Program-made: the position numbers and the translations under genes
Shown here: one piece after another, positions 803 to 17,893 of the stretch
Position numbering within the stretch: the first letter of the stretch is position 1
Layout of the letters: every line of letters starts with the position of its first letter
Notes under the pieces: model-generated
What the model was told of the DNA's origin: nothing
Databases searched by the model: none
Seen by the model: only the letters and a program-made list of their open reading frames with translations
Assembly (NCBI RefSeq): GCF_025148285.1
Contig: NZ_CP102268.1
Location: 1,848,001-1,912,000, forward strand
Reading direction: 5' to 3'
Length of the DNA: 64,000 bases
DNA from: Marvinbryantia formatexigens DSM 14469
GTDB lineage: Bacteria; Bacillota; Clostridia; Lachnospirales; Lachnospiraceae

Positions 803-908
803 AAAAATACTCCTTTATCCTACAAGTATGTTCTCCTTAAGCTAACATACCTATGTAAAATCCAGGAGTATTTAATGTAAAATCTGTGTAAATTTAGTCT
901 TCGTTCAT

Positions 909-933
909 AGCAGTTCAGCCAGGCTGCCCTGTT
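909..933. repeat. Dispersed palindromic repeat, copy 1
   Basis: A 25-bp imperfect palindrome with arms CAG..CAGCC and GGCTG..CTG. It lies between the trxA stop and the start of the Na/Pi transporter gene. The core is repeated exactly at 29298-29322 in the sugar-transport operon. Here it could help end trxA transcription or stabilise its 3' end. Confidence 0.55.
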
Positions 934-960
934 GCCTGCAGAAATCCATTTAAAACCGCT

Positions 961-1260
961 CTACAGCAGCCCCAGCACTCTTTCTTTAGAGACTGAACCG
1001 ACGGAAGTCTCCTTCAGCTCGCCGTCCTTAAACACCAGCAGTGTCGGAATACTGCTCACGCGGTAGCTCTGCGCCAGCTCAAATTCTTTATCAACATCTA
1101 CCTTTACAAGCTTCACCTCTGGATGCTCCGCCACGACCTCGTCCAGCACCGGCGCAAACATTTTGCACGGTCCGCACCAGTCTGCCCAGAAATCTACCAG
1201 CACCGTTCCCTTTGCGTCCAGCACCTCGCTCTGAAAGGTTTCTTTTGTTGCATTTATCAT
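961..1260 (-). CDS. trxA: Thioredoxin
   Basis: Cytoplasmic disulfide reductase of 99 residues, the normal length for a single-domain thioredoxin. The redox motif WCGPC is at residues 28-32, preceded by the usual VDFWAD strand. The cis-proline is at P72 (SSIPTLLVF), and the GxxS-type C-terminal helix is present. The start codon follows GGAGGTGG. A promoter fits at 1384-1411, so it is probably monocistronic or read weakly from the acyltransferase gene upstream. Thioredoxin reductase is not nearby. The assignment is essentially certain; which of the cell's thioredoxins it is cannot be told. Confidence 0.97.
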   Translation of the reverse strand: MINATKETFQSEVLDAKGTVLVDFWADWCGPCKMFAPVLDEVVAEHPEVKLVKVDVDKEFELAQSYRVSSIPTLLVFKDGELKETSVGSVSKERVLGLL

Positions 1261-1383
1261 ATTGCTTCCACCTCCTGCTTCACGCCATCACATATAGTCT
1301 GCCCGGAAAATCTCTGATATATGTATTTTTATGACGCCGGTTCTGCCATTTATGCCCGCACGCTTTCCACTCTTTTTCTTTAT

Positions 1384-1411
1384 ATTATACACATTTTTAC
1401 AAATATGTCGA
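1384..1411 (-). promoter_or_regulatory. Sigma-A promoter of trxA
   Basis: On the minus strand, TCGACA (1411-1406) and a perfect TATAAT (1389-1384) are 16 bp apart, about 125 bp before the trxA start. Confidence 0.6.
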
Positions 1412-1420
1412 GTGAAAAAT

Positions 1421-2485
1421 TTATGTCTTTTGCTTTTTTAACAGCTTATTTAACAAAAAACGGCTGAGCCGGAGCATCGGCTTCTCCACAAAATAATAAG
1501 AGCATATTGCCGCCGCCAGCGTAGGCAGGGCACTTATTATAAATGTTTTCGTATATCCCAGGCTAATTCCCCACTGCTGCTGCAGCGAAACCGCAAGCTG
1601 CTGGAAGAAAAAGCCGTACAGATAAATTCCATAGGACGGCTCCACCTTCCTTCCCACGTTCTTGAAGACCGGCTCCGGAGCAAATACAAGTGAAAAAATA
1701 AAATACGGAAAAATCACGTACAGCAGGATATACTGCAGGGTTCCGGAAGCGGACTGGAATGCCAGAAGTACACACATTGCCACGCATGCAAGCTGTATGT
1801 TCAGATACTTACGTACCTCTTCATAGGTAAAGAGGATTCCAATCACATAGCAGACAATTACCTGGTATGCCTGGAACAGGTTCACACCATAAACCACCAC
1901 CCGGTTCTGCACGCCGATAGTAATAAGAGCCACATTTATTCCGCACACCAGCACAGTAAATCCCGCCATGATGCGAAAGGATATTTTTGAACCATGCTTT
2001 ACACGCAGCACCGTCAGCAGAACCGGCGTTATCACATAAAGCGCCGCTTCCACCGGCATTGTCCAGAGCGAGCCATTGATGGTGTTTGGGATCGGCACAT
2101 CCGTAAAAACGCCCGGAAGGGCAAATACCGGAAAGAACCGCAGGTTCCGAAGATAAACCGTATACCAGCTTTCAAAATATCCCTTCACGCCCAGATCAGA
2201 CAGCAGCGGTCCCGCCACAAACACGACCAGCAGCACCATTACGGCAAGCGGCGGCCACAGGCGGAAAAAACGGCGGATGGCAAAACGCAGCGGGTGCGGA
2301 TCCGACAGCCAGCTCATCGTAATGAGATAGCCGCTTATCAGAAACAACGTAAAGACCCCAAGCTCGTGCAGGCTGAATCCCCCGAAGCGCGGCGCCGTAC
2401 CACCAAGGATCAGACCCAGATGACCGGCAAACACAAACCAGGCGGCAATCAGACGGACAATCCCAAAGTTGTTTTCTCTCTTCAT
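1421..2485 (-). CDS. Acyltransferase-3 family membrane protein, cassette copy 1
   Basis: Polytopic O-acyltransferase (Acyl_transf_3/OafA type, about 10 hydrophobic segments, 354 residues). The family transfers acyl groups such as acetyl to cell-surface sugars. The conserved family His is in WFVFAGHLG near residue 22, followed by LFLISGYLI and the basic loop RRFFRLWPP. Two close paralogues lie at 5900-6970 and 11019-12089; the three proteins are nearly identical in their first 160 residues. It follows the wall-binding protein gene at 2653-5175 after a terminator hairpin, so it is probably expressed by read-through. Unlike copies 2 and 3, no XRE gene follows. The substrate is unknown; action on a wall or capsule glycan is inferred from family and neighbours. 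Confidence 0.88.
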   Translation of the reverse strand: MKRENNFGIVRLIAAWFVFAGHLGLILGGTAPRFGGFSLHELGVFTLFLISGYLITMSWLSDPHPLRFAIRRFFRLWPPLAVMVLLVVFVAGPLLSDLGVKGYFESWYTVYLRNLRFFPVFALPGVFTDVPIPNTINGSLWTMPVEAALYVITPVLLTVLRVKHGSKISFRIMAGFTVLVCGINVALITIGVQNRVVVYGVNLFQAYQVIVCYVIGILFTYEEVRKYLNIQLACVAMCVLLAFQSASGTLQYILLYVIFPYFIFSLVFAPEPVFKNVGRKVEPSYGIYLYGFFFQQLAVSLQQQWGISLGYTKTFIISALPTLAAAICSYYFVEKPMLRLSRFLLNKLLKKQKT

Positions 2486-2544
2486 GTATTACTTTATCCT
2501 TTCTTTACCTGCAAATAAGGTGTTCCAGTTCTTTCATTTCCCGG

Positions 2545-2590
2545 CAAAAAACAAGTACGGCTGCCAGTTTCCTGGCAGCCGCACCTGTCT
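2545..2590 (-). terminator. Rho-independent terminator after wall-binding protein 1
   Basis: A long stem (2551-2588, arms rich in GGCTGCCAG/CTGGCAGCC, 4-nt loop) is followed on the minus strand by TTTTTTG. It separates the surface-protein gene from its acyltransferase. Confidence 0.85.
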
Positions 2591-2652
2591 TTAAAGCATT
2601 GTAGCTTATCAATCAATCAGCTAATCGCATACGGTACGATTAAGCAATCTTA

Positions 2653-5175
2653 TTAAGCCTGTCCATAAACCTGACCTTTTACTACGTTGAACTTAGCGCC
2701 ATCATAGTTCACTGTTCCAGTGAAATCAGATGCCAGTCTGCCATCGATTACGTAGAACCATGCGCCATCATACAGTACAAGGGTTGTCTTGTCAGTAACC
2801 TGACCGCGTACAAGATAATACCATTTCTCGCTTGCCGGATCCTGCCACAGTCCGCTGTATTCGTCAATAATACGTCCGGATGCTACTGCAAATTTTCTTC
2901 CGTCAAACTCAACCAGTCCGCCTACGTTGGTATCAATAATACCATTCTGTACGTAGAACGCTTTGCCCTGGTAGGTTGTAAGACCAACATACTGGGTCTG
3001 AACCATACCATATGCAAGGAAGTACCACTTGTTGTTGATGAGCTTCGCTCCGTTTACGCCGGTTGCAACAGTGCCGTTCTCTACATAGAACAGGCTTCCG
3101 TTGTAATCTACCAGACCCTTGAAGGTAGTATCAATTACGCCATCTTTGTAGTAATTGAACTTGCCATCTTCCAGATGCAGACCGTTCAGCTTCAGTGTAT
3201 CTTTTCTGTCAAGGTAAGATACAGCGTTGGTGAAGTAATCTGCTGTAAACTGCTTGGAAATAACTTTCTTCTGACCTTTTGCATCAACACCTTCTACCTG
3301 TACATCCAGTGTAATGCTGCCTGCCTTCAGCTCTGTTTCTTTCTTAATGCTGGTAATCTTCATTGTCAGAGCCTGTGCTGCTGTGATATCCTGCTTGTTG
3401 TTACCGCATGTAGAGCAGTTGTTGTATACCTTAACAGCCAGTGTACCGGAAGCAATCTTCACAAGCTGGTTCGGTGTAATAAACTGACCGTTCAGCTTCA
3501 GAGTTTCGCCATTTGTATCTACCAGAACATCTCCAACAAGCTCAACTGTTGTTGTTCCATCAAGAACAGTCTTTGTACCCTGGGAGGTACCGTTGTCGTT
3601 GATACCAATCTCATTTGTATGAGCAAGTCTCTTAACTTCTTTCTTTACTCTGTTGCTCAGTTCTTTTCCGCAAAGATCGCACTTGTCAGCGCTGATGATA
3701 TAACCCTTTTCTTCGCAGGTCGATTCTTTCATCTCTACAACTGCATTCTTTGTGATGGAATAATGGTTGAACATATCTGTCTTTGCAGTATAAACAGTAT
3801 CTGTCGGCTCTTTGCAGGTTGTGCAGAGCAGAGTTACTGTAGTTGTACCATTCTCTGTGCAGGTAGCTGTCGTTTCAACAGAAACATACTGGCTCTTGTT
3901 GTTTGCCTTAAGCCATGTCATCATTCCCTCATAGCTGTCCAGAATACCATCTGTAATATGAGTATCCATGTATCTCTTTACACTCTGGTCAACCTTGTGC
4001 GGACCCTGCGGTTTTGCAATCATTTCCTCAGAGTTTCTGTCCATGTTGCAGTTGCGGCATGTTGTATTGATATAATACCGGATATCCTCGTTGCAGGTAT
4101 TATTAACAACTGTTGTACCGGTTACCGTGCATTTTGCTCTGTCTGCAGAATTTACAAATACAACCTTCTTTACCTCTGAATGATGCGGTGCATCAATCGT
4201 AACCGTTTCAATTCTCGGATTATTGATGTTCGTCTGGTAGTAGTAATATACCTGGTAGGAACCTGCTTTCAGACAATCCTTGAAAACGATAAGGTTCGGA
4301 GAAGCTTTCAGCATGTCAGCAGTAACATCAGCAAAAGAGTTTTTGCCAAACGCAGCCGCTGTTTTTGCTTCGTCAATGTTTACCGTATTCTTTACTTCGG
4401 TTCTGCTAATCTGTTCAGCTTCGATACGTACTCTTTCAAGCTTTGTGTCGTTCTTTCCGCACTTCGTGCACACACCTTCAGAAACTTTGATGTAAAAGCC
4501 TTCTTTTGTCGTGTCAATCAACGCCGGCTGGCCGTTTACAAGCTTGGTATTTACCGCATCAACCTCTTCACCATCATACTTGTCGCCTGCAACAAGATAC
4601 TTGATGAAGCTCCAGGAAGAAACAGAATGTCCTTCCGGCTCGACATCCCATTTGCCTGCCTGCTCAGTCTTACCGCACACTGCACACTTACGCATTTCTA
4701 CAGTAACGCCCCAAGTTTCACATCCTGCAGCGATAATTACTTCTTTATAAGTCTCGCCCCACTGATGGTCTTTCAGAATGGTTCCCTGAATATCAGCCGA
4801 TATAACATCCGTCTTACCCTCTGCATATTCTACCGTATAGGTTCTGTTTTCCAGAGAATTGCAAGTTGCCGGCTTTGTTACTACACTGATATTAAGCGGA
4901 TCTGTCTCTTTTCCATCGCTCCACATAACTTTAACTACGTTGTTCCGAGCATCTTCAACTCTCAGCCCCACATACGTTTTCGTCGCTGCAGGCGGATTTG
5001 CAGCTACAGTTTCTTCTGCTACTTCTTCTGCCTGCGCGTCTACTGTTGCTTCCGTAACAGTTTCTGTCGCTGCTTCTGTAACATTTTCTTCTGCAAATGT
5101 TACTGCTGACATTGAACTCATAGCCATCATGACAGACATTGCCATAGCTGTGAGTTTCACTTTGTTAAGCTTCAT
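2653..5175 (-). CDS. Secreted protein with wall-binding repeats, cassette copy 1
   Basis: Exported surface protein of 840 residues. The start MKLNKVKL (5175) is chosen because GGAG sits 8 nt before it. An in-frame upstream extension is leader RNA, also conserved in the paralogues. A signal peptide covers residues 1-27, probably cut after TFA. Next come an acidic Ala/Thr/Glu linker and a long middle region with six CxxC pairs (for example CAVCG, CTKCG, CRNC, CTTC, CDLCG, CSTCG), several in the 'ATCxxxG…CxxC…H' repeat common in clostridial surface proteins. The last 180 residues are eight aromatic, Gly-rich repeats of 21-24 residues (GLVDYNGSLFYVENG type), resembling choline/cell-wall-binding repeats. 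It is about as long as, and very similar to, copy 2, and the repeat region is almost identical. The ligand is unknown. Confidence 0.85.
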   Translation of the reverse strand: MKLNKVKLTAMAMSVMMAMSSMSAVTFAEENVTEAATETVTEATVDAQAEEVAEETVAANPPAATKTYVGLRVEDARNNVVKVMWSDGKETDPLNISVVTKPATCNSLENRTYTVEYAEGKTDVISADIQGTILKDHQWGETYKEVIIAAGCETWGVTVEMRKCAVCGKTEQAGKWDVEPEGHSVSSWSFIKYLVAGDKYDGEEVDAVNTKLVNGQPALIDTTKEGFYIKVSEGVCTKCGKNDTKLERVRIEAEQISRTEVKNTVNIDEAKTAAAFGKNSFADVTADMLKASPNLIVFKDCLKAGSYQVYYYYQTNINNPRIETVTIDAPHHSEVKKVVFVNSADRAKCTVTGTTVVNNTCNEDIRYYINTTCRNCNMDRNSEEMIAKPQGPHKVDQSVKRYMDTHITDGILDSYEGMMTWLKANNKSQYVSVETTATCTENGTTTVTLLCTTCKEPTDTVYTAKTDMFNHYSITKNAVVEMKESTCEEKGYIISADKCDLCGKELSNRVKKEVKRLAHTNEIGINDNGTSQGTKTVLDGTTTVELVGDVLVDTNGETLKLNGQFITPNQLVKIASGTLAVKVYNNCSTCGNNKQDITAAQALTMKITSIKKETELKAGSITLDVQVEGVDAKGQKKVISKQFTADYFTNAVSYLDRKDTLKLNGLHLEDGKFNYYKDGVIDTTFKGLVDYNGSLFYVENGTVATGVNGAKLINNKWYFLAYGMVQTQYVGLTTYQGKAFYVQNGIIDTNVGGLVEFDGRKFAVASGRIIDEYSGLWQDPASEKWYYLVRGQVTDKTTLVLYDGAWFYVIDGRLASDFTGTVNYDGAKFNVVKGQVYGQA

Positions 5176-5404
5176 AACCATTTCTCCTTTTCTTTCTTTT
5201 TGTTGCAAGCCCCTTATTATTTTGTTGTTCAGGTCCTGCCATGTTGAACCCGTATTCACCTCATTCCACATCCCGAACCAGATTCCCGGCATGCAGAAGA
5301 AGCACAGAGAGCAAAACCCTATTCCCTGGAAAATAAGCCTTTGCTTCCATTCAACACTTCTCGTCTACAATTTGAAGTATAATTGAAATTTCTCTATTTG
5401 TCAA
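5176..5404 (-). promoter_or_regulatory. Promoter and long conserved leader of wall-binding protein 1
   Basis: On the minus strand, TTGACA (5404-5399), a 17-bp spacer and TATACT (5381-5376) form a near-consensus sigma-A promoter. The start codon is about 195 nt downstream. The end of the leader (ATGGCAGGACC…AATAAGGGG…AAAGGAGA) is conserved in all three cassette copies. No riboswitch class was recognised. Confidence 0.8.
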
Positions 5405-5489
5405 TACGATATTTTAGAAAAATCTCTAATTCTTTTTCGTCATAACATCTAAAAAATAAGGTTTTTCTTTAAATGAATCTTTTTAAAGA

Positions 5490-5522
5490 GAGAAATGGAG
5501 CTGACCGGCTCCCGCCGGTCAG
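5490..5522 (-). terminator. Terminator of XRE regulator 1
   Basis: A perfect stem CTGACCGGC/GCCGGTCAG with a 4-nt loop (5501-5522) overlaps the stop codon of the XRE gene. It is followed on the minus strand by a CU-rich tract (TTTCTCTCTTT). Confidence 0.8.
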
Positions 5523-5884
5523 TAATTTAAGAATAAATCGCCGTATTTTTTAATATTTTCATCAAGCGAATTCATACAGAGCTGAATAATGCGGAATCTG
5601 TCATACACGGAAGCATTATTGTAGGCTTTAAGCAGAAGTTTCTCTTCTTCTGTTAGAGATATTTCTATTTTATCTTCCTTTCTTTCGTCCGTAAGACACA
5701 GCAGATAATCGGTGGATACATCAAAATATAATGCTACTTTTATAATACTCTCCAGACTGGGTTTGCCTTTTCCTTTCTTCCACTGCAGGAGGCTTGCATT
5801 TGCAAGTCCTGCCCCTACTTCCACATCCTTGCTGGTAAGATGGCGTTCTTCTTTCAACTGGAAAATACGGTCAACTACGTTCAT
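5519..5884 (-). CDS. XRE-family transcriptional regulator, cassette copy 2
   Basis: Cytoplasmic DNA-binding protein of 121 residues. An N-terminal Cro/C1-type helix-turn-helix (residues about 5-60; VVDRIFQLKEERHLTSKDV…LANASLLQWKKGKGKPSLESIIKVALYFDVSTDYLL) is joined to a short C-terminal helical tail. GGGAGGG precedes the ATG. The gene starts 15 bp after the acyltransferase at 5900-6970 and ends in its own terminator, so the two are cotranscribed. A paralogue is at 10635-11003. It probably controls its own cassette, perhaps at the shared TTGACA-N17-TATACT promoters, but no operator is identified. Confidence 0.9.
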   Translation of the reverse strand: MNVVDRIFQLKEERHLTSKDVEVGAGLANASLLQWKKGKGKPSLESIIKVALYFDVSTDYLLCLTDERKEDKIEISLTEEEKLLLKAYNNASVYDRFRIIQLCMNSLDENIKKYGDLFLNY

Positions 5885-5899
5885 GTAAATCCCTCCCTG

Positions 5900-6970
5900 C
5901 TATCGTGACTCCATATTTTCCCTTTTCACCTTTTTAATAAGAAAGCGACTGACCTGCAGCATCGGTTTCTCCACCATATAATATGATACCACAGCTGCCG
6001 CCAATGTAAACAGGGCACTTATCAGAAACGTCCGGGTATATCCCAGGCTTATCCCATATTGCTGCTGCAGATAAATCACAAGCTGCTGAAAGAAAAAGCC
6101 GTAGAGATAAATGCCGTAAGACGGCTCCACTTTCTTTCCCACGTTCTTGAAGACCGGCTCCGGAGTAAATACAAACGAAAAAATAAAATACGGAAAAATC
6201 ACATACAACAGAATGTACTGTACGGTTCCGGAGGCTGACTGAAACGCCAGCAGTACACACATTGCCACACAGGCAAGCTGTATATTCAGATACTTACGCA
6301 CTTCTTCGTAAGTGAAAAATATCCCGATCACATAAAAAACAACCACCTGGTATGCCTGGAACAGGTTCACACCATAAACCACCACCCGGTTCTGCACACC
6401 AACGGTAATGAGCGCCACATTGATCCCACATACCAGTACAGTAAACGCCGTCATAATGCGGAAGGATATTTTTGAACCGTGCTTTACGCGCAGCACCGTC
6501 AGTAGAACCGGTGTAATCACATAAAGCGCCGCTTCCACCGGCATCGTCCAGAGCGAGCCGTTGACAGTATTCGGAATTGGCACATCCATAAAGACGCCAG
6601 GAAGGGCAAATACTGGAAAGAACCGCAGATTCCGCAGATAAACCGTATACCAGCTTTCAAAATATCCTTTCACACCCAGATCAGACAGCAGTGGTCCCGC
6701 CACAAACACGACCAGCAGCACCATCACGGCGAGCGGCGGCCACAGGCGGAAAAAACGGCGGATGGCAAATCGCAGCGGGTGCGGGTCCGACAGCCAGCTC
6801 ATTGTGATGAGATAGCCGCTTATCAGAAACAAAGTAAAGACTCCCAGCTCGTGCAGGCTGAAGCCCCCGAAGCGCGGCGCCGTACCGCCAAGGATCAGAC
6901 CCAGATGACCGGCAAACACAAACCATGCGGCAATCAGACGGACAATCCCAAAGTTGTTTTCTCTCTTCAT
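5900..6970 (-). CDS. Acyltransferase-3 family membrane protein, cassette copy 2
   Basis: Polytopic membrane O-acyltransferase of 356 residues, a close paralogue of the genes at 1421 and 11019. It has the same family motifs (FAGHLG, LFLISGYL, RRFFRLWPP). Identity to copy 1 is very high over the N-terminal half; most substitutions fall in the last third (for example QLVIYLQQQYGISLG). It is followed 15 bp later by an XRE gene and preceded by the wall-binding protein at 7144-9681 with a hairpin between. The ribosome site is modest (AAAGGA, well spaced). It probably decorates a surface glycan; donor and acceptor cannot be read from sequence. Confidence 0.88.
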   Translation of the reverse strand: MKRENNFGIVRLIAAWFVFAGHLGLILGGTAPRFGGFSLHELGVFTLFLISGYLITMSWLSDPHPLRFAIRRFFRLWPPLAVMVLLVVFVAGPLLSDLGVKGYFESWYTVYLRNLRFFPVFALPGVFMDVPIPNTVNGSLWTMPVEAALYVITPVLLTVLRVKHGSKISFRIMTAFTVLVCGINVALITVGVQNRVVVYGVNLFQAYQVVVFYVIGIFFTYEEVRKYLNIQLACVAMCVLLAFQSASGTVQYILLYVIFPYFIFSFVFTPEPVFKNVGKKVEPSYGIYLYGFFFQQLVIYLQQQYGISLGYTRTFLISALFTLAAAVVSYYMVEKPMLQVSRFLIKKVKRENMESR

Positions 6971-7040
6971 ATAATTACTATATCCTTTCTGTCCGGCATA
7001 TGAGGTGCTTCAATTCGTCTGCAAAGAGTCAGAGAAGAAG

Positions 7041-7078
7041 ACAGGTGCGGCTGCCAGTTTCCCGGCAGCCGCACCTGT
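7041..7078. terminator. Hairpin after wall-binding protein 2
   Basis: A long perfect stem (arms ACAGGTGCGGCTGCC and its complement) is equivalent to the terminator at 2551-2588. The T-run is better on the plus strand (TCTTTTT) than on the minus strand (CTTCTTCTCT), so termination of the minus-strand transcript may be partial, allowing read-through into the acyltransferase. Confidence 0.7.
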
Positions 7079-7143
7079 CTTTTTAGCATTGTAGCTTATC
7101 AATCAATCAGCCAAATCGCATACGGTACGATTAAGCAGTCTCA

Positions 7144-9681
7144 TTAAGCCTGTCCATAAACCTGACCCTTTACTACGTTGAACTTAGCGCCGTCATAGTT
7201 CACTGTTCCAGTGAAATCAGATGCCAGTCTGCCGTCGATTACGTAGAACCATGCGCCATCATACAGTACAAGGGTTGTCTTGTCAGTAACCTGACCGCGT
7301 ACAAGATAGTACCATTTCTCGCTTGCCGGATCCTGCCACAGTCCGCTGTATTCGTCAATAATACGTCCGGATGCTACCGCAAATTTTCTTCCGTCAAACT
7401 CAACCAGTCCGCCTACATTAACATCGATGATACCATTCTGTACATAGAATGCTTTGCCCTGGTAGGTTGTAAGACCAACATACTCGGTCTGAACCATACC
7501 ATATGCAAGGAAGTACCACTTATTGTTGATGAGCTTCGCGCCATTTACATCTGTTGCAACAGTGCCGTTCTCTACATAGAACAGGCTTCCGTTGTAATCT
7601 ACCAGACCCTTGAAGGTAGTATCAATTACGCCATCCTTGTAGTAATTGAACTTGCCGTCTTCCAGATGCAGACCGTTCAGCTTCAGTGTATCTTTTCTGT
7701 CAAGGTAAGATACAGCGTTGGTAAAGTAGTCTGCTGTAAACTGCTTGGAAATTATCTTCCTCTGGTTCTTTGCATCAATACCTTCAACTGTTACATCCAG
7801 TGTAATGCTGCCTGCCTTCAGTTCGGTTTCTTTCTTGATGCTTGCAACCTTAATCTGTACAATCTGGTCGCCTGTGATATCCTGTTTGTTATTGCCGCAT
7901 GTAGAGCAGTTGTTGTATACCTTAACAACCAGAGTACCGGAAGCCATCTTTACCAGGTCCTGCGGTTTGATATACTGCCCGTTCAAGTTCAATGTTTCTC
8001 CATTAACATCTACCAGAACCTCTCCAATAAGTTCTACGGTAGTTGTCTCATCAAGAACATCTTTTGTTCCTTTAGAGGTACCATTATCGTTAATGCCAAC
8101 TTCATTGGTATGTGCAAGTCTCTTAACTTCTTTCTTTACTCTGTTGCTCAGTTCTTTTCCGCAAAGATTGCACTTGTCAGCGCTGATAATATAACCCTTT
8201 TCTTCACAGGTTGATTCTTTCTGTTCTACAACAGCATTCCTTGTGATGGAATAATGGTTGAACATATCTGTCTTTGCAGTGTAAACAGTATCAGTCGGCT
8301 TCTTACAGGTTGTGCAGAGCAGAGTTACTGTAGTTGTACCATTCTCTGTGCAGGTAGCTGTTGTTTCAACAGATACATACTGGCTCTTATTATTTGCGCT
8401 AAGCCATGTCATCATATCCTCATAGCTGTCCAGAATACCGTCTGTGATATGAGTATCCATATACTTCTTAACGCTCTGGTCAATTTTATGCGGACCCTGC
8501 GGCTCTGCAATCATCACATCTGAATTCCTGTCCATATCGCAATTACGGCATGTCGTATTGATATAATACCGGATGTCCTCGTTGCAGGTATTGTTGATAA
8601 CAGTCGTTCCTTTTACCGTGCATTTGTCTTCATCTGCATCATTTACAAATACAACATTCTTTACTTCCGAATGATGCGGCGCACCAATCGTAACTGTTTC
8701 GATTCTCGGATTATTGATGTTCGTCTGATAGTAGTAATATACCTGGTAAGAACCAGCTTTCAGACAATCCTCAAAAACAATGAGATTCGGATCTGCTTTC
8801 AACATATCAGCCGTAACCTTATCAAAAGACAACACCTTGAAAGCTCTCGCAGTTGCAGCTTCATCAATGTTTACCGTGTTCATTACTTCTGTTCTGCTGA
8901 CCTGCTCAGCTTCCATCCGTACTCTTTCTGTCTTTGTCACATTCTTTTCGCACTTCGTGCATTTGCCTTCATACAATTCAATGTAGAAACCTTCCTGCGT
9001 CGGGTCGATTAATGCCGGTTTACCATTTACAAGCTTGGTATTTACAGCATCTACCGCTTGATTGCCAATCTTGTCGCCTGTAACGCAGTATTTAATAAAC
9101 GTCCACGAAGAAACCTTATGTCCCGCCGGTTCAACTTCGATTTCATCGCTTACATATTCTACCGTCTGGCAAGCTGCACATTTGCGAGCTTCTCTGTAAA
9201 TTCCGTTCTCATCACATGACGGTTCTCTGAGAAAATCCTTATAAGTCTCGCCCCACTGATGGTCTTTCAGAATAGTTCCCGGAACCTCAACTGTTGTAGC
9301 AGCAGATAATCCTTCTGCATATTCTACCGTATAGGTTCTCTTTTCCAAAGAAGCACAAGTTGCAGGAGTTACTTTCACTGACTGCTTAAGTGGTGACGTC
9401 GTAATTTCTTTTCCATTTTGATTCCATACAACCACAACGGTATCCTTATTAACGTCTGTAACTCTAAGTCCTACATACACCTTTTCCTCCACAGGCGGAT
9501 TTGCAGCTACAGTTCCTTCTGTTCCCGCATCTTCTGCCTGCGCTTCTGCTGTTGCTTCCGTAACAGTTTCTGTCGCTGCTTCTGTAACATTTTCTTCTGC
9601 AAATGTTACTGCTGACATTGAACTCATAGCCATCATGACAGACATTGCCATAGCTGTGAGCTTCACTTTGTTAAGCTTCAT
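7144..9681 (-). CDS. Secreted protein with wall-binding repeats, cassette copy 2
   Basis: Exported surface protein of 845 residues, paralogue of 2653-5175. The start MKLNKVKL at 9681 is set by GGAG 8 nt upstream. The signal peptide (residues 1-27) and acidic linker match copy 1. The middle region has the same series of CxxC pairs (CDEN…CAAC, CTKC, CRNC, CTTC, CNLCG, CSTCG) but more substitutions, while the last 180 residues (eight aromatic repeats) differ from copy 1 at only a few positions. This gradient points to gene conversion or selection on the wall-binding end. Its promoter and leader are at 9682-9908. The acyltransferase and XRE genes of the same unit follow. Confidence 0.85.
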   Translation of the reverse strand: MKLNKVKLTAMAMSVMMAMSSMSAVTFAEENVTEAATETVTEATAEAQAEDAGTEGTVAANPPVEEKVYVGLRVTDVNKDTVVVVWNQNGKEITTSPLKQSVKVTPATCASLEKRTYTVEYAEGLSAATTVEVPGTILKDHQWGETYKDFLREPSCDENGIYREARKCAACQTVEYVSDEIEVEPAGHKVSSWTFIKYCVTGDKIGNQAVDAVNTKLVNGKPALIDPTQEGFYIELYEGKCTKCEKNVTKTERVRMEAEQVSRTEVMNTVNIDEAATARAFKVLSFDKVTADMLKADPNLIVFEDCLKAGSYQVYYYYQTNINNPRIETVTIGAPHHSEVKNVVFVNDADEDKCTVKGTTVINNTCNEDIRYYINTTCRNCDMDRNSDVMIAEPQGPHKIDQSVKKYMDTHITDGILDSYEDMMTWLSANNKSQYVSVETTATCTENGTTTVTLLCTTCKKPTDTVYTAKTDMFNHYSITRNAVVEQKESTCEEKGYIISADKCNLCGKELSNRVKKEVKRLAHTNEVGINDNGTSKGTKDVLDETTTVELIGEVLVDVNGETLNLNGQYIKPQDLVKMASGTLVVKVYNNCSTCGNNKQDITGDQIVQIKVASIKKETELKAGSITLDVTVEGIDAKNQRKIISKQFTADYFTNAVSYLDRKDTLKLNGLHLEDGKFNYYKDGVIDTTFKGLVDYNGSLFYVENGTVATDVNGAKLINNKWYFLAYGMVQTEYVGLTTYQGKAFYVQNGIIDVNVGGLVEFDGRKFAVASGRIIDEYSGLWQDPASEKWYYLVRGQVTDKTTLVLYDGAWFYVIDGRLASDFTGTVNYDGAKFNVVKGQVYGQA

Positions 9682-9908
9682 AACCATTTCTCCTTTTCTT
9701 TCTTTTTGCAGCAGACCCCTTATTATGTTGTTGTTCAGGTCCTGCCATGTTGAATCCGTACTCACTTCATTCTGCATCCCAAACCAGCTTTCCAGGATTC
9801 AGAAGAAGCACAGAAAGCAAAATCCTATTCTGGAAAATAAGCCTTTGCTTCCATTCAACACTTCTTGTCTACAATTTGAAGTATAGTTGAAATTACTCTA
9901 TTTGTCAA
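9682..9908 (-). promoter_or_regulatory. Promoter and long conserved leader of wall-binding protein 2
   Basis: TTGACA (9908-9903) and TATACT (9885-9880) on the minus strand are 17 bp apart, followed by a 195-nt leader closely matching that of copy 1. Confidence 0.8.
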
Positions 9909-9994
9909 TAACATATTTTTGAAATTTCTCTTTTTCTTTTTGAGAATATTATTAAAGAATTAAGAATTGCATTTATGCGCTATATTAAAGAAAA

Positions 9995-10070
9995 AAGAAA
10001 CTGGCTGGCACCTCTGCCAGTCAATAATTTAAGAACTTTTTCCGATAGAGATTTATCATTTTCTCTCTGC
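9995..10070 (-). pseudogene. Decayed 3' end of an XRE regulator gene
   Basis: The stretch matches the terminator and 3' end of the XRE gene at 10607-10800 (palindrome ACTGGCTGGCA…TGCCAGTC, then AATTTAAGAAC), with an internal deletion of roughly 115 bp. It then resumes at a segment matching CGATAGAGATTTATCA…TTTCTC. No ORF remains. It marks the place where the unit-2 side once had, or received, another XRE copy. Confidence 0.65.
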
Positions 10071-10231
10071 CGTATGAGGTTAAGAAGAAGCTAAGAAACG
10101 ATAGAGAAGAAAATATATTGACACGGATAAGCCAACTGGATTGTGACCCGGATTTCCATAGCCTCGTTTATGAATTTTCCAGGAACTTTATCCTGGTCGC
10201 TTGCAATACATAAAATACGATAGTAGAATAA

Positions 10232-10573
10232 AATCAGAAAGTTTATAATGAACAGATAAAACTCCACGGAAGAACGCGGCAGGCTGTATTGGAGACAATC
10301 CGCATTTGTAAAGACAGGAATGTATTGGTAGAATATCTTCGTGGCCGAGAAAAGGAGGTTATAAATATTATGATGACATTATTTGAACAGGAATATGCCG
10401 TTGAACGGTATGGAGATGAGAGGGAAGCAACCGGCGAGATGAAAAAGGCCAGGGAGACTGCCTTTGAGCTTGCTGACATGGGTCTTCCAGTAGAAAAAAT
10501 TGCAAAGGCGGTGAAAGTCAATCTGGAAACGGTGAAGGGCTGGCTTTCTGGAACGCCGTCTGCCGCGAGATAA
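10232..10573 (+). pseudogene. C-terminal remnant of an Rpn-type PD-(D/E)XK nuclease/transposase gene
   Basis: An open frame from 10232 encodes NEQIKLHGRTRQAVLETIRI…EYLRGREKEVINIMMTLFEQE…PVEKIAKAVKVNLETVKGWL. This is the typical tail of the recombination-promoting nuclease/putative transposase family (Rpn, COG5464-like): 'REVINIMMTLFxQE' followed by a Lys/Glu-rich helix and a small HTH-like end. An in-frame stop precedes it and no catalytic N-terminus is found, so it is a fragment. A TTG at 10289 could start a 94-residue peptide, but no ribosome site supports it. It is bracketed by direct copies of the XRE 3' end (9995 and 10607). Confidence 0.7.
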
Positions 10574-10606
10574 AAATAAACAGCAGAAATTTTGCTCCCT
10601 TTCCTT

Positions 10607-10637
10607 AAAAGAAACTGGCTGGCACCTCTGCCAGTCA
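10607..10637 (-). terminator. Terminator of XRE regulator 2
   Basis: Minus-strand stem ACTGGCA…TGCCAGcCAGT (10614-10635), then TTTCTTTT. It overlaps the XRE stop codon as in copy 1. Confidence 0.75.
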
Positions 10638-11003
10638 GTAATTTAAGAACAAATCTCCATATTTCCTTATGTTTTCATCAAGTGAATTCATACAGATCTG
10701 GATAATGCGGAACTTGTCGTGAACGGTTGCATTATTGTAAGCTCTGAGCAAAAGCTTCTCTTCTTCTGATAGAGATTTATCAGTTTCTCCTCTGCCATTT
10801 TTTTCATCAGAAAGACACAGCAGATAATCGGTGGATACGTTAAAATAAGATGCCACCTTTATGATATTTTCCAGGCTTGGTTTCCCTTTCCCTTTTTTCC
10901 ACTGGGAAAGACTCGAATTTGCAAGTCCCGCGCCAACCTCCACATCCTTGCTGGTAAGATTGCGTTCTTCCTTTAATTGAAAAATACGGTCAACTACGTT
11001 CAC
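10635..11003 (-). CDS. XRE-family transcriptional regulator, cassette copy 3
   Basis: Paralogue of the gene at 5519-5884 (122 residues; same HTH, VVDRIFQLKEERNLTSKDVE…SLSQWKKGKGKPSLENIIKV). The aligned start codon is GTG (11003), at the position of the ATG in the other copy and 8 nt after GGGAGGG. An ATG two codons upstream abuts the ribosome site and is unlikely to be used. The gene follows the acyltransferase at 11019 by 15 bp and ends in a terminator. Weaker initiation at GTG could lower its level relative to the other copy. Its targets are unknown but likely the cassette promoters. Confidence 0.88.
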   Translation of the reverse strand: MNVVDRIFQLKEERNLTSKDVEVGAGLANSSLSQWKKGKGKPSLENIIKVASYFNVSTDYLLCLSDEKNGRGETDKSLSEEEKLLLRAYNNATVHDKFRIIQICMNSLDENIRKYGDLFLNY

Positions 11004-11018
11004 AAACATCCCTCCCTA

Positions 11019-12089
11019 CTATTTCGGCTCCGTATTTTCCCTTTTCACCTTTTTAATAAGGAAGTGGCTGACTCGCTGCATCGGTTTCTCCACCAGATAA
11101 CAGGATACCACAGCCGCTGCCAGTGTGAACAGGGCACTGAGCAAAAACGTTTTCGTATAGCCAAGGCTTATTCCATGCCGCAGCTGCAGAGAAACTACGA
11201 GCTGCTGGAAGAAAAAGCCATACAAATAGATTCCATAGGATGGTTCCACTTTCTTCCCTACGTTTTTAAATACCGGTTTCGGAGCAAAAACAAAGGAAAA
11301 AATAAAATACGGAAAAATCAGATACAACAGTATATATTGCAGGGTTCCAGAAGCGGACTGGAATGCCAGAAGCACACACATTGCCACGCAGGCAAGCTGT
11401 ATATTCAGGTACTTTCGTACCTCTTCATAGGTAAAGAGGATTCCAATCACATAACAAACAGTTACCTGGTATGCCTGGAACAGGTTCACGCCGTAAACCA
11501 CCACTTGATTCTGCACGCCCACAGTCATAAAAACCACATTTATCCCGCACACCAGTATGGTAAATACCGCCATGATACGGAAAGAAATTTTCGACCCATG
11601 CTTTACGCGCAGTATCGTCAGCAAAATCGGCGTTATCACATAAAGAGCCGCTTCTACCGGCATCGTCCAGAGCGAGCCGTTGACAGTATTCGGAATCGGC
11701 ACATCCGTAAAAACACCAGGGAGGGCAAACACTGGAAAGAACCGCAGGTTCCGCAGATAAACCGTATACCAGCTTTCAAAATATCCTTTCACACCCAGAT
11801 CAGACAGCAGCGGTCCCGCCACAAACACGACCAGCAGCACCATCACGGCGAGCGGCGGCCACAGGCGGAAAAAACGGCGGATGGCAAATCGCAGCGGATG
11901 CGGATCCGACAGCCAGCTCATTGTGATGAGATAGCCGCTTATCAGAAACAAAGTAAAGACTCCCAGCTCGTGCAGGCTGAATCCCCCAAAGCGCGGCGCC
12001 GTACCGCCAAGAATCAGTCCCAAGTGTCCGGCAAACACAAACCAGGCGGCAATAATGCGGATAATTCCAAAGTTGTTTTCTCTATTCAT
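11019..12089 (-). CDS. Acyltransferase-3 family membrane protein, cassette copy 3
   Basis: Polytopic membrane O-acyltransferase of 356 residues, paralogue of the genes at 1421 and 5900. It starts MNRENNFGIIRIIAAWFVFAGHLG, keeping the family His and the LFLISGYLI and RRFFRLWPP segments. Divergence is again concentrated in the C-terminal third (SLQLRHGISLG, LVEKPMQRVSHF). It is preceded by the wall-binding gene at 12206-14647 with a terminator between, and followed by the XRE gene. The role in surface-glycan acylation is inferred from the family only. Confidence 0.88.
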   Translation of the reverse strand: MNRENNFGIIRIIAAWFVFAGHLGLILGGTAPRFGGFSLHELGVFTLFLISGYLITMSWLSDPHPLRFAIRRFFRLWPPLAVMVLLVVFVAGPLLSDLGVKGYFESWYTVYLRNLRFFPVFALPGVFTDVPIPNTVNGSLWTMPVEAALYVITPILLTILRVKHGSKISFRIMAVFTILVCGINVVFMTVGVQNQVVVYGVNLFQAYQVTVCYVIGILFTYEEVRKYLNIQLACVAMCVLLAFQSASGTLQYILLYLIFPYFIFSFVFAPKPVFKNVGKKVEPSYGIYLYGFFFQQLVVSLQLRHGISLGYTKTFLLSALFTLAAAVVSCYLVEKPMQRVSHFLIKKVKRENTEPK

Positions 12090-12120
12090 GTATACAGTAT
12101 CCTCTCTATCCGCTTCTTAT

Positions 12121-12160
12121 AAAACAGGGGCCGCTGTCAGAGAATCTGATAGCAGCCCCC
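12121..12160 (-). terminator. Terminator after wall-binding protein 3
   Basis: Minus-strand stem GGGGCTGCTATCAGA…TCTGACAGCGGCCCC, then TGTTTTAT. It corresponds in position, not in sequence, to the hairpins after copies 1 and 2. Confidence 0.75.
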
Positions 12161-12205
12161 ATCCTTACTCAGTTATCTTTTCCAAAATCAAGTGAATTTA
12201 ATCAC

Positions 12206-14647
12206 TTATGCTACCGGACCATAGAGCTGACCATTTACTACGTTGAATGTAGCGCCGTCATACTGAACAGTTCCCTTGTAGTCTTTTGCAAGCTTACCAT
12301 CTCTTACATAGAAAGCTTCGCCATCATAGATTGCAACACCGGTATGCTGATTCTGAACCTGTCCAAGTGCCAGGAAGTACCATGTGCCGTCGCTGTTCTG
12401 CCACAGACCGTTTACATCATTGCGAAGACGACCATTTGTGAACAGGAATGTTCCTCCGTTGTACGGAACCAGACCGCTTACATTTGTATCCAGAACACCA
12501 TTTGTCAGATAGAACCAAGCGCCATCATACAGAGCCAGTCCGTTGAATCCACGCTGAACCTGACCATTAGCCAGATAGTACCATGTACCATTGTACTCAT
12601 TCAGACCGTTAGCTTTGCTGCAAACAACACCATTTGCTACAAAGAACTCACCGCCGTTGTACTCAGCGATTCCTGCGTAATCTGCCTGGAACTCGCTATC
12701 CTTGTAGTAACGAACTACGCCATCAGCATCAAGCTGCAGACCATTAATCGGTTTCTCTTCCGGATTTCTGTCAAAGTAAGCACCCAGATCGCTGTAGTAC
12801 GGAACAGTAACTGTGTCTGTTACAACTTTATTACCATTTGCAGTTTTATAAGAAGCATTTAAAGTAATCGAACCTGCTGTCTCTTTCGTTTCTTTCTGAA
12901 GAGCTGCGATAGTTATTTCCGGAGTTCCTACAACCGTAGCCTCACCGCATCTCTCGCACGCCGTAACTGCATCCACCTGTACACCATAGCTTGTAAGAAC
13001 GTTCATTGCACCGCCACCTACAAAACCATTAGCACCGACTTTGCTTCCAACTCTCCAGGTTGTACCATCACCAACTACTACGCTGCCTTCAAATCTAATC
13101 TGAGCATTCTTATCGCCATCTTTTTCTGTTGTATGGCCAAGTTTAGCAAGCGTTACCTTTCTGGTTGCCATTACCGCATCACAATATTTGCAATGAGTAA
13201 CAGAATCATAAGAACCATTTGTTGTGCATGTAGCTTCAACTCTGTTCTCCTGTCTTGCTTTTGCTTCAGCGCTGTGATCAAATTTGCCAATGTTTACAGT
13301 AACTGTTCCATCTGCAATTTCTTCACCGCATTCTTCACAGATATATGTAATTGTAACAGTTCCACCTTCGTTGCATACAACAGAAGCATTGTACTTCATG
13401 CCGCTTCCCGTTGCATTCGCTGCTTCCAGGAAAGCATCGTATGCTTTCTGAGTCGCATAACCAGCATTTCTCTTTGCATTATCCTGAAGAGCTTTTACTG
13501 CCGCTTCTGCGGATGCTTTAATCTTATGTGTACCAGCCGGCTCAGCCGTCCGTTCTTCTTCCAGAATTATATTATTTTTGTATGAGCAGGTATCGCTTAA
13601 GCACTTAACAGTCCACACATATGTTGCTGACTTATAGCAGGATTTGCTGACAACATCTGTTATATTTCCCTTTGTATCATATATAACCTGAATAAGTTCT
13701 TTATCTGCAGCTGTTTTCCCCACTACTGTCGGTGTTCCTTCTGAATGACGCGCCGTAATAGTATAAGTTGCTGTACCAAGGCTATTCCCTTTTGCATCAA
13801 AATCTTCTACTGTATATGTAGCATCTTTAGAGCAATTAGTAAGTATAATCTTATCTTCATCTACATAGCGTCCGTCTGTTCCAACTTCGATTTCCTCACC
13901 TGCCGCCAGACCAGATTTAATATTTGTTACTTTAACGACCTTGGTTGTAGCACGTTCACCTGTGCTAGCGTAAAGCTTCTCTGTCTTTCTATCGGTCTCA
14001 AACCAACCGTCGCACATCGTGCACTGCTTCTCTGTCACCACATAGTATGTACCATTTTTAGCAGTATTTTTGAGGACAGCTTCTCCATTGACTATCTCAA
14101 CATTGTTACCTGCCACCAGATTTGTCCGGGTAGCTTTCGTCAAATTATGACTTGCCGGTACAGATTCATAGCTGTTTTCATCCACCTCTTTTTCTCCACA
14201 CCTGGAGCATCTTCTTACCAGCGCTGACTGTCCAGCCTTTCCCAGTGAGCAATCACCATGATCAATGGTCTCTCTTGCCCACTCGCTCCATGCATGCCCA
14301 AGCGGTGCGCTTGTCTCATAATTCTGATGATAGGTTGTGCCGTCTATCGCAATAGACCACCGTGTAGCCGCTCCAGTAGTACATGTTGCGGCAACCTGTT
14401 CACTTGTAGCCTTCTGCGGCCATGTTTCTGTTGTCTGATCACTATAAGTTACCGTAACCGTTCCATCTTCGCTGATGTCAGCACCAGTAACATATACAGC
14501 AGCTGCCAAAGTTTCCGCCGTTTCCTGCGCTTCTTCTGTCACAACGTCAGTCGCTGCTTCCTCAGCGAAAGCTGAGAGGGACATCGTACTCGCAGCCATT
14601 ACAACAGACATTGCCAAGGCCGCGAGTTTTTTCTTGTTAGTTCTCAT
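12206..14647 (-). CDS. Secreted protein with wall-binding repeats, cassette copy 3
   Basis: Exported surface protein of 813 residues and the most diverged of the three. The start MRTNKKKLAALAMSV (14647) follows AAAGGAGA. The signal peptide ends near LSAFA. The middle region carries CxxC pairs within 'ATCTxxG' modules (CSRCG, CTMC, CEECG, CKYC, CERCG), and the end has eight 21-24-residue aromatic repeats (GLNEYNGTWYYLANG, GLALYDGAWFYLTNG). Little of the middle region aligns directly with copies 1 and 2, yet promoter, leader, signal region and gene order are the same. It may be the older copy from which the 1/2 pair derived, or a functionally different adhesin. Confidence 0.85.
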   Translation of the reverse strand: MRTNKKKLAALAMSVVMAASTMSLSAFAEEAATDVVTEEAQETAETLAAAVYVTGADISEDGTVTVTYSDQTTETWPQKATSEQVAATCTTGAATRWSIAIDGTTYHQNYETSAPLGHAWSEWARETIDHGDCSLGKAGQSALVRRCSRCGEKEVDENSYESVPASHNLTKATRTNLVAGNNVEIVNGEAVLKNTAKNGTYYVVTEKQCTMCDGWFETDRKTEKLYASTGERATTKVVKVTNIKSGLAAGEEIEVGTDGRYVDEDKIILTNCSKDATYTVEDFDAKGNSLGTATYTITARHSEGTPTVVGKTAADKELIQVIYDTKGNITDVVSKSCYKSATYVWTVKCLSDTCSYKNNIILEEERTAEPAGTHKIKASAEAAVKALQDNAKRNAGYATQKAYDAFLEAANATGSGMKYNASVVCNEGGTVTITYICEECGEEIADGTVTVNIGKFDHSAEAKARQENRVEATCTTNGSYDSVTHCKYCDAVMATRKVTLAKLGHTTEKDGDKNAQIRFEGSVVVGDGTTWRVGSKVGANGFVGGGAMNVLTSYGVQVDAVTACERCGEATVVGTPEITIAALQKETKETAGSITLNASYKTANGNKVVTDTVTVPYYSDLGAYFDRNPEEKPINGLQLDADGVVRYYKDSEFQADYAGIAEYNGGEFFVANGVVCSKANGLNEYNGTWYYLANGQVQRGFNGLALYDGAWFYLTNGVLDTNVSGLVPYNGGTFLFTNGRLRNDVNGLWQNSDGTWYFLALGQVQNQHTGVAIYDGEAFYVRDGKLAKDYKGTVQYDGATFNVVNGQLYGPVA

Positions 14648-14878
14648 AACCAAGTCTCCTTTTCTTTCTTTTTTGTTGCAGACCCTTATTAATTTGTTTT
14701 TAAAGTTCTGCCATGCCGGGCTTACTTTTGCCTTGTCCCATGCAGGAAGTTGTCCCATCCCCTCAAAGACGCAAATAGCGCAGAGTATTAACTTTACTTT
14801 TAGAAAAAAGCCTCTCTGCCTCTGCCCAACAGTTTTGATTTACACTAACAGTATAATTTGCAAAGTATTTTTTGTCAA
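14648..14878 (-). promoter_or_regulatory. Promoter and leader of wall-binding protein 3
   Basis: TTGACA (14878-14873), a 17-bp spacer and TATACT (14855-14850) on the minus strand. The last 60 nt of the leader (GGCATGGCAG…AATAAGGG…AAAGGAGA) align with copies 1 and 2 although the rest has diverged. Confidence 0.8.
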
Positions 14879-15333
14879 TACTTATTTTTCTGGAAATTTT
14901 GGTTATTTTTGGATGCAATCCGCTTTTTTGCATGGCATCTTTTATTCAAACTTCATATTCATATTCCATCTTTTATATATCACTTTCACATCGTATTTTC
15001 TTTCTTATGCGTTCACATATTGTAAATACTACAAATGTAAAAAATAATTTTGACCGACGGTAAGCAATTTTTACAAATTTCTCTTGATACGAAAAAAGGG
15101 AAGCTGCCGCCATTTCTGACTGCAACTCCCTTACTTCTCTTTAATATTAAGCAGAATTTGTTCAGAATTTTTCAGTTGTCCCTTCGGATAGACAAGAAAC
15201 GAATACTGCTTAATGATTTTCCCCTATTATTCGAAGTTTAACGTCGACTACATCAAGAAACGTTTTTCTGATTCCTAATCTCATACTTCTTTCTTCACCC
15301 ACTCAGACGAAAAACTAAATTTTGTATCATACA
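14879..15333. other. AT-rich intergenic region without a recognised gene
   Basis: About 455 bp of AT-rich sequence upstream of cassette copy 3. It contains only a hairpin-forming 34-bp sequence at 15099-15132 that recurs at 17860-17893. No ORF here has a ribosome site. Confidence 0.5.
15099..15132. repeat. 34-bp hairpin repeat, copy 1
   Basis: Near-identical to 17860-17893 (GGAAGCTGCCGCC…GCAACTCCCTT). It can fold as a terminator-like stem (AAGGGAGTTGC…GCAGCTTCCCTT), with a T-run on the minus strand. The two copies bracket the unknown gene and the DUF4143 ATPase gene. Confidence 0.6.
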
Positions 15334-15397
15334 AAAAGCTCTGTCACCCAACTGCTGCAACGTCTTTTACAACCGATCACATATGACAGAGCCTTTT
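15334..15397 (-). terminator. Terminator of the 190-residue protein gene
   Basis: Minus-strand arms GGCTCTGTCA and TGACAGAGC around a long loop, followed by TTTTTG. Confidence 0.6.
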
Positions 15398-15448
15398 ATT
15401 TGGTTACTTATCTATTCACGCATTCTTGTTCTACAATCACAGCACCGC

Positions 15449-16021
15449 CTATCCCAAATAGTTTAAGATTGTTTTATTAATACCCATCGGCAAATCATGG
15501 CGTAAATAACCTGCTACCAGTTTTTTCACTCCAGATACTGGTGTACTAAATAATGCTTTTATTGAATCTAATTTTTCATTTGATGGAGAATAATAATAAA
15601 CTTCGACCTTGTCGCCCACTTGAACAATTTCCACTCTAATATCCAGTTTTAGACCCACAATACTTCGTACCGCTTTCGCCTCACATGTAATTATACGTTT
15701 AGCATCACCGCCGCCCCTCTCTACATTAACCAACGACAACCCAGAAAAATAATTGCAAACCGCTTCTTGCATTCCTTTCGTATATTCAAAATACGGGTTG
15801 ACCACATACTCCCTGTATAAAACCGTATTGCTGCCATTACCTACTTGCGACCATCCATCCTCAGCTGCATCATTAAAATAGTTCTCTCCTTCTTTTGCCA
15901 AAGTTTTTATTGATTCTTCTGAAGATTTCATAAGAGCACCTGGATGTACTCCAACATCTCTCGCCAGTTCGGCGGCCTTTTCAGCTGCCTGAATAATAAC
16001 TCCAATCAATAAAGGCGACAT
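15449..16021 (-). CDS. Hypothetical protein
   Basis: I do not recognise this 190-residue protein. The start MSPLLIGVIIQAAEKAAELA at 16021 is preferred because GGAGGTGG precedes it at normal distance; an ATG 11 codons upstream lacks a site. It has an N-terminal hydrophobic/amphipathic helix, a central mixed region (GGGDAKRIITCEAKAV…VGLKLDIRVEIVQVGDKVEVYYYSP) that looks like a beta-rich domain, and no signal peptide with a clear cleavage site. It stands alone with its own terminator, next to a decayed coding fragment. It could be a small accessory gene brought in with the neighbouring ATPases. Confidence 0.65.
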   Translation of the reverse strand: MSPLLIGVIIQAAEKAAELARDVGVHPGALMKSSEESIKTLAKEGENYFNDAAEDGWSQVGNGSNTVLYREYVVNPYFEYTKGMQEAVCNYFSGLSLVNVERGGGDAKRIITCEAKAVRSIVGLKLDIRVEIVQVGDKVEVYYYSPSNEKLDSIKALFSTPVSGVKKLVAGYLRHDLPMGINKTILNYLG

Positions 16022-16157
16022 AATATTCCACCTCCGCAAGCCAATGAATTTCAAATATTATATAACATTTTTAAATTATTCATAATTATAATGCTTATTT
16101 AGTTAAAAGTCAATTATTTTTTAAATTTATCATTAATTTTCAAAAAATTATTAATAA

Positions 16158-16310
16158 ATCGCCTATCAAGAACGTGTCCTGTCCCAGCTGCGTAAATATT
16201 ATCCGGATGCCGCTTCTTCCCTTCTTTCTTCCACAATGGAAGAACTCGTATATAAAGAGGGGCAGTTATTCTTATCTGATTCAGAAAGAACCGCATTAAT
16301 AATGATTTAA
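16158..16310 (+). pseudogene. Possible C-terminal coding remnant
   Basis: The plus frame from 16158 to the stop at 16310 reads IAYQERVLSQLRKYYPDAAS…MEELVYKEGQLFLSDSERT. It has protein-like composition and no start or ribosome site. The family is not recognised. It is probably the tail of a gene lost when neighbouring sequence was rearranged. Confidence 0.35.
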
Positions 16311-16412
16311 TCTGTAAATATCGTGGTTATGATGGAATCTGCCATATTCAAGAATCCAACATTGAAACCAGCATCATTGTAACGTCTGCATATCAAAACC
16401 ATTAAAATATTT

Positions 16413-17666: not shown

Positions 17667-17827
17667 AAGCCCCTCCTTTATTAAACATTTTTTACAGTTC
17701 CGTCTATTTTATTCAATATAATCATACATCTCTCACGCTCGGAATGCAAATGAATATTTTATACATCTGATATGTTTTTTGGGGGACATAAACACTTTTT
17801 ATATTTTTTTCGGTAACCGATGAATCC

Positions 17828-17858
17828 TTTTTAGTGCGCCCGCCGGGCGCACTAAAAA
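17828..17858. terminator. Perfect palindromic bidirectional terminator
   Basis: 15-bp perfect arms (TTTTTAGTGCGCCCG and its complement) with a 1-nt loop. The A/T ends give a T-run in both directions. It lies downstream of the AAA/PD-(D/E)XK gene. Confidence 0.8.
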
Positions 17859-17859
17859 A

Positions 17860-17893
17860 GGAAGCTGCCGCCATTTCTGACTGCAACTCCCTT
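17860..17893. repeat. 34-bp hairpin repeat, copy 2
   Basis: Second copy of the repeat at 15099-15132, directly next to the palindrome at 17828-17858. Confidence 0.6.

Follow-up and report, generated by a model that had tools for sequence, protein, structure and literature searches.

Three tandem units on the minus strand, each consisting of a gene for a secreted protein (S), a hairpin, a gene for an acyltransferase-3 family enzyme (AT) and, in two of the three, a gene for an XRE-family regulator, lie at one end of the stretch of DNA analysed here, a window of 64,000 nucleotides from Marvinbryantia formatexigens DSM 14469. The window corresponds to contig positions 1848001-1912000 in a one-contig genome of 4,577,574 bases. 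On balance, we lean towards reading the array as a set of tandem surface-coat modules on an acquired 18.3-kb island, in which an anchored protein would be combined with O-acylation of a glycan and the copies recombine with one another. This reading is favoured because the catalytic motif of the AT enzymes is kept and because their relatives either belong to polysaccharide clusters or acetylate O-antigen for phages.

Transcription runs from unit 3 (U3) through U2 to U1, all on the minus strand. In U3, a promoter-like site (14850-14878) and a probable structured 5′ leader (14671-14832) precede S3 (12206-14647), which is followed by a hairpin read from the sequence (12127-12160), AT3 (11019-12089), XRE3 (10635-11009) and a terminator-like hairpin 3′ of XRE3 (10619-10634). 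The corresponding features of U2 are the promoter-like site (9880-9908), probable leader (9706-9861), S2 (7144-9681), S2-AT2 hairpin (7038-7083), AT2 (5900-6970), XRE2 (5519-5884) and terminator-like hairpin (5497-5512). U1 is composed of the promoter-like site (5376-5404), probable leader (5200-5357), S1 (2653-5175), S1-AT1 hairpin (2546-2591) and AT1 (1421-2485); there is no XRE gene downstream, and the array ends at the AT1 stop codon, which is directly followed by the thioredoxin promoter region. The likely S starts (14647 in S3, 9681 in S2 and 5175 in S1) were set inside the longest open reading frames (ORFs), which begin at 14758, 9777 and 5292, respectively, because the ribosome-binding site (RBS) and signal peptide are located there. 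A first-pass annotation had described this order of S, terminator, AT and XRE as occurring three times with the leftmost unit lacking XRE, and the coordinates bear it out, with the same S-AT gene order and an S-AT hairpin in all three units. Its further description of the cassette as threefold amplified holds for AT but not for S: the array has three close AT copies and the rest of the genome has no other at E≤1e-3, so that chance does not account for the likeness. The S1 and S2 proteins are 83.0% identical, whereas S3 shares only 35.3% with S1 and 33.0% with S2; by these values S3 is a distant paralogue and not a recent copy.

Each S protein begins with a signal peptide and ends in repeats of the choline-binding type, matching Pfam Choline_bind_4 in 3/3 proteins (34.7, 37.2 and 57.1 bits against a cut-off of 27). 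Between these ends lie Cys/His modules that follow the loose expression C-x(n)-CxxC-x(n)-H, with four in S1, four in S2 and three in S3, and CxxC pairs that number six, six and five, respectively. Zinc binding by these modules is probable, and they match no Pfam family above cut-off. Neither an enzyme domain nor a toxin domain was found in the S proteins, and a sequence search of the PDB returned no match at E≤0.01. In a structure model of S2 built from three sequences, the C-terminal solenoid is the one reliable part, with a predicted local distance difference test (pLDDT) score of mostly 75-90, and the remainder is poor (mean pLDDT 52.8). Foldseek places the solenoid close to C-LytA and clostridial repeat domains, a likeness that bears on the repeat fold alone. 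Two other proteins of the same genome, with 650 and 1609 residues by the ORF table, carry related repeats.

The AT proteins are far closer to one another, with pairwise identities of 88.4-90.7%. All are members of Pfam Acyl_transf_3 (PF01757; 53.4, 58.2 and 61.4 bits against a cut-off of 31), and all three possess near the N-terminus the R-X10-H motif (R11/H22), which is described as absolutely conserved in acyltransferase-3 proteins (PMC9833829). The ratio of nonsynonymous to synonymous divergence (dN/dS) between copies is about 0.1, a sign of strong purifying constraint, and therefore all three look functional. Relatives include PHROG 3333, an O-acetyltransferase family (E 1.8e-29 with AT1), and eight records of a phage collection, among them Sf6 Oac, at 26-27% identity over 99% of the query. 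Among 396 other genomes of the family, 18 hold an AT relative, the best at 38% identity over full length or 48% over a partial match; of the ten neighbourhoods viewed, six resemble glycosyltransferase or polysaccharide clusters by eye and four do not or are ambiguous. Envelope-glycan O-acylation is the likeliest AT activity, favoured because the motif is kept, the relatives are O-acetyltransferases and six of these ten neighbourhoods are polysaccharide-like. When distant relatives are included, seven of nine acyltransferase-3 family places in the genome exceed the cut-off, three of the seven being the array copies. Two other members were noticed in passing: a further distant gene in the same window at about 51948-53018 (contig 1899948-1901018), and a broken gene with several in-frame stops elsewhere in the genome (contig 281594-282425).

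The differences between copies are distributed unevenly along the genes. For S1 against S2, synonymous divergence starts at 0.19 over the initial 60 codons, rises to 1.78 at alignment codons 181-240 and falls to 0.10-0.23 in the last three blocks; this heterogeneity was reached in 0/2000 permutations, and the longest identical run has a p value of 0.001. Silent divergence among the AT genes is low in the first third and high elsewhere, with significant heterogeneity for AT1/AT2 (p 0.0055) and AT2/AT3 (0/2000 permutations). An alignment of the three AT genes contains 217 variable sites in a mosaic of patterns, where the longest concordant run is 14 sites (0/5000) and heterogeneity has a p value of 0.0004. 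Such patchy silent divergence fits sequence exchange between the copies within this one genome, and so the first-pass suggestion of recombination gains support from both the uneven synonymous differences and the mosaic AT site patterns. Two finer remarks were also accurate: the AT genes, said to be nearly identical in the first half, agree best over codons 1-120, where a block of 60 codons carries between 0 and 3.5 nonsynonymous changes, and S1 and S2, whose final 180 residues were said to be nearly identical, differ by four nonsynonymous changes over the three closing blocks of 60 codons. To these can be added the signal-peptide end of S1 and S2, which is nearly identical as well and had gone unmentioned. 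The proposed diversification, if taken as positive selection, is not supported because dN/dS stays below 1 in every 60-codon block of S1/S2.

The XRE genes and their surroundings suggest that units have been gained and lost. XRE2 and XRE3 share 81.0% protein identity and belong to Pfam HTH_3; against RstR-type phage repressors, XRE2 reaches 46.1 bits, which is below the NCBIfam cut-off of 80. Between U3 and U2, a remnant of a further XRE gene is present on the minus strand (9993-10071) along with its own terminator. It matches XRE3 in two collinear pieces, one of 44 nt (97.7% identity) and one of 37 nt (89%), separated by an internal deletion, and suggests that this place once held either another unit or a second copy of XRE. 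The same interval contains a plus-strand ORF of 94 amino acids (10289-10573), which we take to resemble the end portion of a transposase of the Rpn/PD-(D/E)XK type; it has no library match above cut-off.

Comparison with a congener, G001, delimits the island. G001 has a sodium/phosphate-transporter fragment at 94% identity. The two sequences match up to window position 1273, and the match resumes at 19744. A 46-bp piece (window 1374-1419) adjoins the 3′ end of an ATPase gene in G001, where a gene for a 205-aa secreted protein lies between thioredoxin and the ATPase. The 18.3 kb between 1420 and 19743 are thus absent from this place in G001, a draft genome 78% complete in which the compared place is contiguous on one contig. 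Gain of the stretch in M. formatexigens is likelier than its loss in G001.

Upstream of each S gene stands a promoter-like TTGACA-17-TATACT that matches the consensus at 11 of 12 positions in all three units, and about 200 nt of leader separate it from the S start. A fold common to the three leaders places P1 as the closing helix of a three-way junction with P2 and P3, followed by P4 ahead of the RBS, and P1 has three compensatory pairs. In the whole structure, which was derived from these same sequences, 90.5% of cells are paired, with changes on both sides at nine pairs against 4.6 in shuffles (0/500). RNAalifold on leader alignment A4 gave a z of -4.85 (0/300 column shuffles), and among 26 background windows of the locus only one was stronger, the S-AT hairpin (z -8.56), the next being -2.92. 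Taken by pairs, U2 with U3 gave a z of -2.8 (2/300) and U1 with U3 gave -1.36 (31/300). In U1 and U2 the predicted folds leave the RBS unpaired, and in U3 part of it is paired. A common fold of the leaders is thus probable and, as a structural proposal, moderately supported. The leader was read as noncoding because the S1/S3 changes are mostly nonsynonymous (12 codons, by eye) and a strictly conserved RBS precedes the inner ATG; an N-terminal coding extension of S was rejected by inspection, though all three frames are open upstream.

The leader appears confined to this genome. No Rfam match reached the gathering threshold anywhere in the window, the S1 and S3 leaders giving chance-level hits (E up to 5). 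A leader model, R1, recovered its own three copies and one weak match in genome G078 (E 0.01, taken as chance) among 397 family genomes, its own three copies among eight genus genomes (none in the seven congeners), and nothing in 11 selected loci. Within the window, two further weak matches to the model were seen at 17.6 and 11.4 bits, the former at 46600-46703 with P1 mostly broken and probably due to chance.

Searches for the components elsewhere returned isolated relatives. A search of genome contigs for the module gave two loci with distant matches only, both in the repeat part, and the sole phage record matched by S3 is likewise confined to the repeats. In IMG/VR, AT was not matched by narrow peptide patterns, the S2 and S3 middles had no confirmed relative by tblastn, and a scan with XRE gave 80 loci with phage-type repressors. 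S was found in none of the seven congeners beyond a G004 match in the signal-peptide range (profile positions 2-60). Among plasmid records, the S2 middle had no match and AT was matched in 21, best at 42.7% in a Subdoligranulum variabile plasmid record, which lists no S or XRE relative among the ORFs within 9 kb of the AT relative. Near that AT relative are glycosyltransferase-like genes and a gene for a secreted protein of 1302 aa that is rich in repeats. Judged from the titles and abstract openings that literature searches returned, the module seems undescribed.

Other genes in and beside the island were noted separately. Inside it, 16413-17666 encodes an AAA_14/DUF4143 ATPase that strongly matches PDC-S01, a candidate defence family of PADLOC (E 7.7e-114), and 17920-19626 encodes an AAA-ATPase_like/PDDEXK_9 protein. 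A 40-nt repeat of 98% identity, hairpin-like by eye, occurs at 15093-15132 and 17854-17893 and flanks 15449-17666. Beside the island, 19746-24780 holds defence-like genes for BrxD/SngB-like ATPases (19746-20939 and 20932-22173) and a PbeA-like helicase (23080-24780), which have counterparts in G001.

If these are surface-coat modules, each may act as one transcription unit in which a sigma-70 promoter and a leader that folds as RNA are followed by S, the hairpin, AT and XRE. The S product would be a secreted protein of about 90 kDa, built from Cys/His modules that probably bind zinc, with solenoid repeats of the choline-binding type as its anchor. The S-AT hairpin may let only part of transcription through to AT, whose enzyme would O-acylate an envelope glycan, while the XRE regulator that closes each module and ends in a terminator could exert control over it. 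Units may arise and vanish by unequal recombination, as the XRE remnant and the missing XRE1 suggest. Gene conversion could hold the secretion and anchoring ends of S, as well as the N-terminal catalytic portion of AT, similar between copies, and the exposed S middle would drift; the array might thereby alter the surface presented to phage or host. In a bolder version, which we regard as improbable, the modules are mobile and the leader is an undescribed RNA class that sets the level of S and, by read-through, of AT, so that coat and glycan change together, perhaps to escape phage.

Several observations weigh against the surface-coat reading. The array is known from one genome only, with the S-AT-XRE module in no other genome among those searched, AT in none of the seven congeners and no S- or XRE-like gene beside AT relatives in any of the ten neighbourhoods viewed. 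The two other repeat proteins of this genome lack an AT- or XRE-like gene within 14-15 kb (phmmer E≤0.01). The first-pass idea that AT modifies the glycan bound by the repeats is a conjecture: the AT family and motif are consistent with an acyltransferase acting on surface glycans, yet repeats occur elsewhere with no related AT nearby and AT relatives without S or XRE. Synonymous heterogeneity was not significant for AT1/AT3 (p 0.157), XRE2/XRE3 (p 0.378), S1/S3 (p 0.79) and S2/S3 (p 0.76), and uneven codon constraint could account for part of the patchy silent divergence. An XRE operator, sought by eye in the three promoters, yielded nothing convincing. The leader fold is based on three sequences, two of them nearly alike. 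In a blind test, the U1 and U2 fold read on U3 kept 38/52 pairs against a permuted mean of 32.3 (p 0.03). Taken singly, P1 kept 8/9 (p 0.086) and P4 8/8 (p 0.047), and the result was not significant for P2 basal (6/7, p 0.58), P2 apical (3/7, p 0.87) and P3 (13/21, p 0.20). Three helices combined kept 22/24 (p 0.008), having been picked after the result was known. Shuffling of single leaders gave z values of -2.48, -2.49 and -0.42, the last being U3, which alone does no better than its shuffles.

Some of these points are what an ordinary paralogue array would produce, in which an old operon duplication left S, AT and XRE unlinked in function and without population variation, and uneven constraint and chance conversions made the rest. 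The dN/dS values below 1 throughout S1/S2, the four gene pairs lacking significant heterogeneity and the repeats that have no related AT nearby are all in keeping with this account, yet it sits poorly with the strongly non-random silent divergence in S1/S2, AT2/AT3 and the AT triple, with the XRE remnant and with an S-AT order kept in 3/3 units, and we consider it rather doubtful. A phage-related role is a reasonable alternative but less likely still. The array might be phage-defence or lysogenic-conversion cargo in which AT masks a phage receptor like Sf6 Oac, XRE is a partner repressor and S a shielding coat. The closest annotated viral AT relatives are indeed O-antigen acetylases, and acetylation of the O-antigen by Sf6 is stated to give superinfection immunity (PMC9558356). 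XRE scores against phage repressor families, and the island holds the PDC-S01 candidate and abuts the BrxD/SngB-like and PbeA-like genes. Set against this are the lack of any recognised phage structural gene or integrase in the part studied, the absence of AT and S matches in the IMG/VR searches described above, identities of only 25-27% to phage ATs and the great commonness of XRE-like repressors; such cargo is judged unlikely.

Antigen-switching loci typically show conserved ends and divergent middles, and the tandem S copies share this arrangement, which would suit a locus that, like S-layer cassettes, expresses its copies singly. Each S gene, however, has an intact promoter-like site and leader, leaving no promoterless silent copies. 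Nor do inverted repeats of at least 40 nt reveal a clear invertible segment: 1-20000 contains three such inverted pairs, one formed by the S-AT hairpins and two by a 44-nt element in coding sequence that has 75% matches at two places. Switching of this kind is very improbable here. Were the surface-coat reading correct, protein paralogue arrays and glycan O-acetylation, which are usually studied apart, would be joined in one recombining unit. It would also make a defined leader RNA available for testing and offer a handle on the envelope variation of commensal Clostridia-type bacteria against phages or hosts.

Each component of the array has a known counterpart from which it departs. The S repeats resemble choline-binding repeats in scoring above the Pfam cut-off and in a C-terminal solenoid fold like that of LytA (C-LytA); unlike those of choline-binding proteins, they are joined to Cys/His modules in the absence of an enzyme domain, and choline on teichoic acid is at most a putative ligand. 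The AT proteins agree with phage Sf6 Oac and OafB (PF01757) in the full-length family match, the R-X10-H motif and a standalone form (no SGNH domain by length), whereas their genes sit in a surface-protein operon as three tandem copies and not in a polysaccharide cluster. Structured leaders of surface-layer genes offer a parallel, for there too a long 5′ stretch of mRNA separates a strong promoter from the gene for a secreted wall protein; the present leader, however, matches no Rfam family and has turned up in this genome alone. A further likeness is to recombining surface-protein loci such as the S-layer cassettes of C. difficile and the sap locus of C. fetus, where tandem or related surface proteins have similar ends and differing middles; here, in contrast, each copy has its own promoter, leader and AT, and no clear invertible promoter was seen. 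The array is a variant of these known recombining surface-protein arrays, set apart by three features: a built-in acyltransferase-3 family enzyme, an XRE regulator and what is probably a leader RNA.

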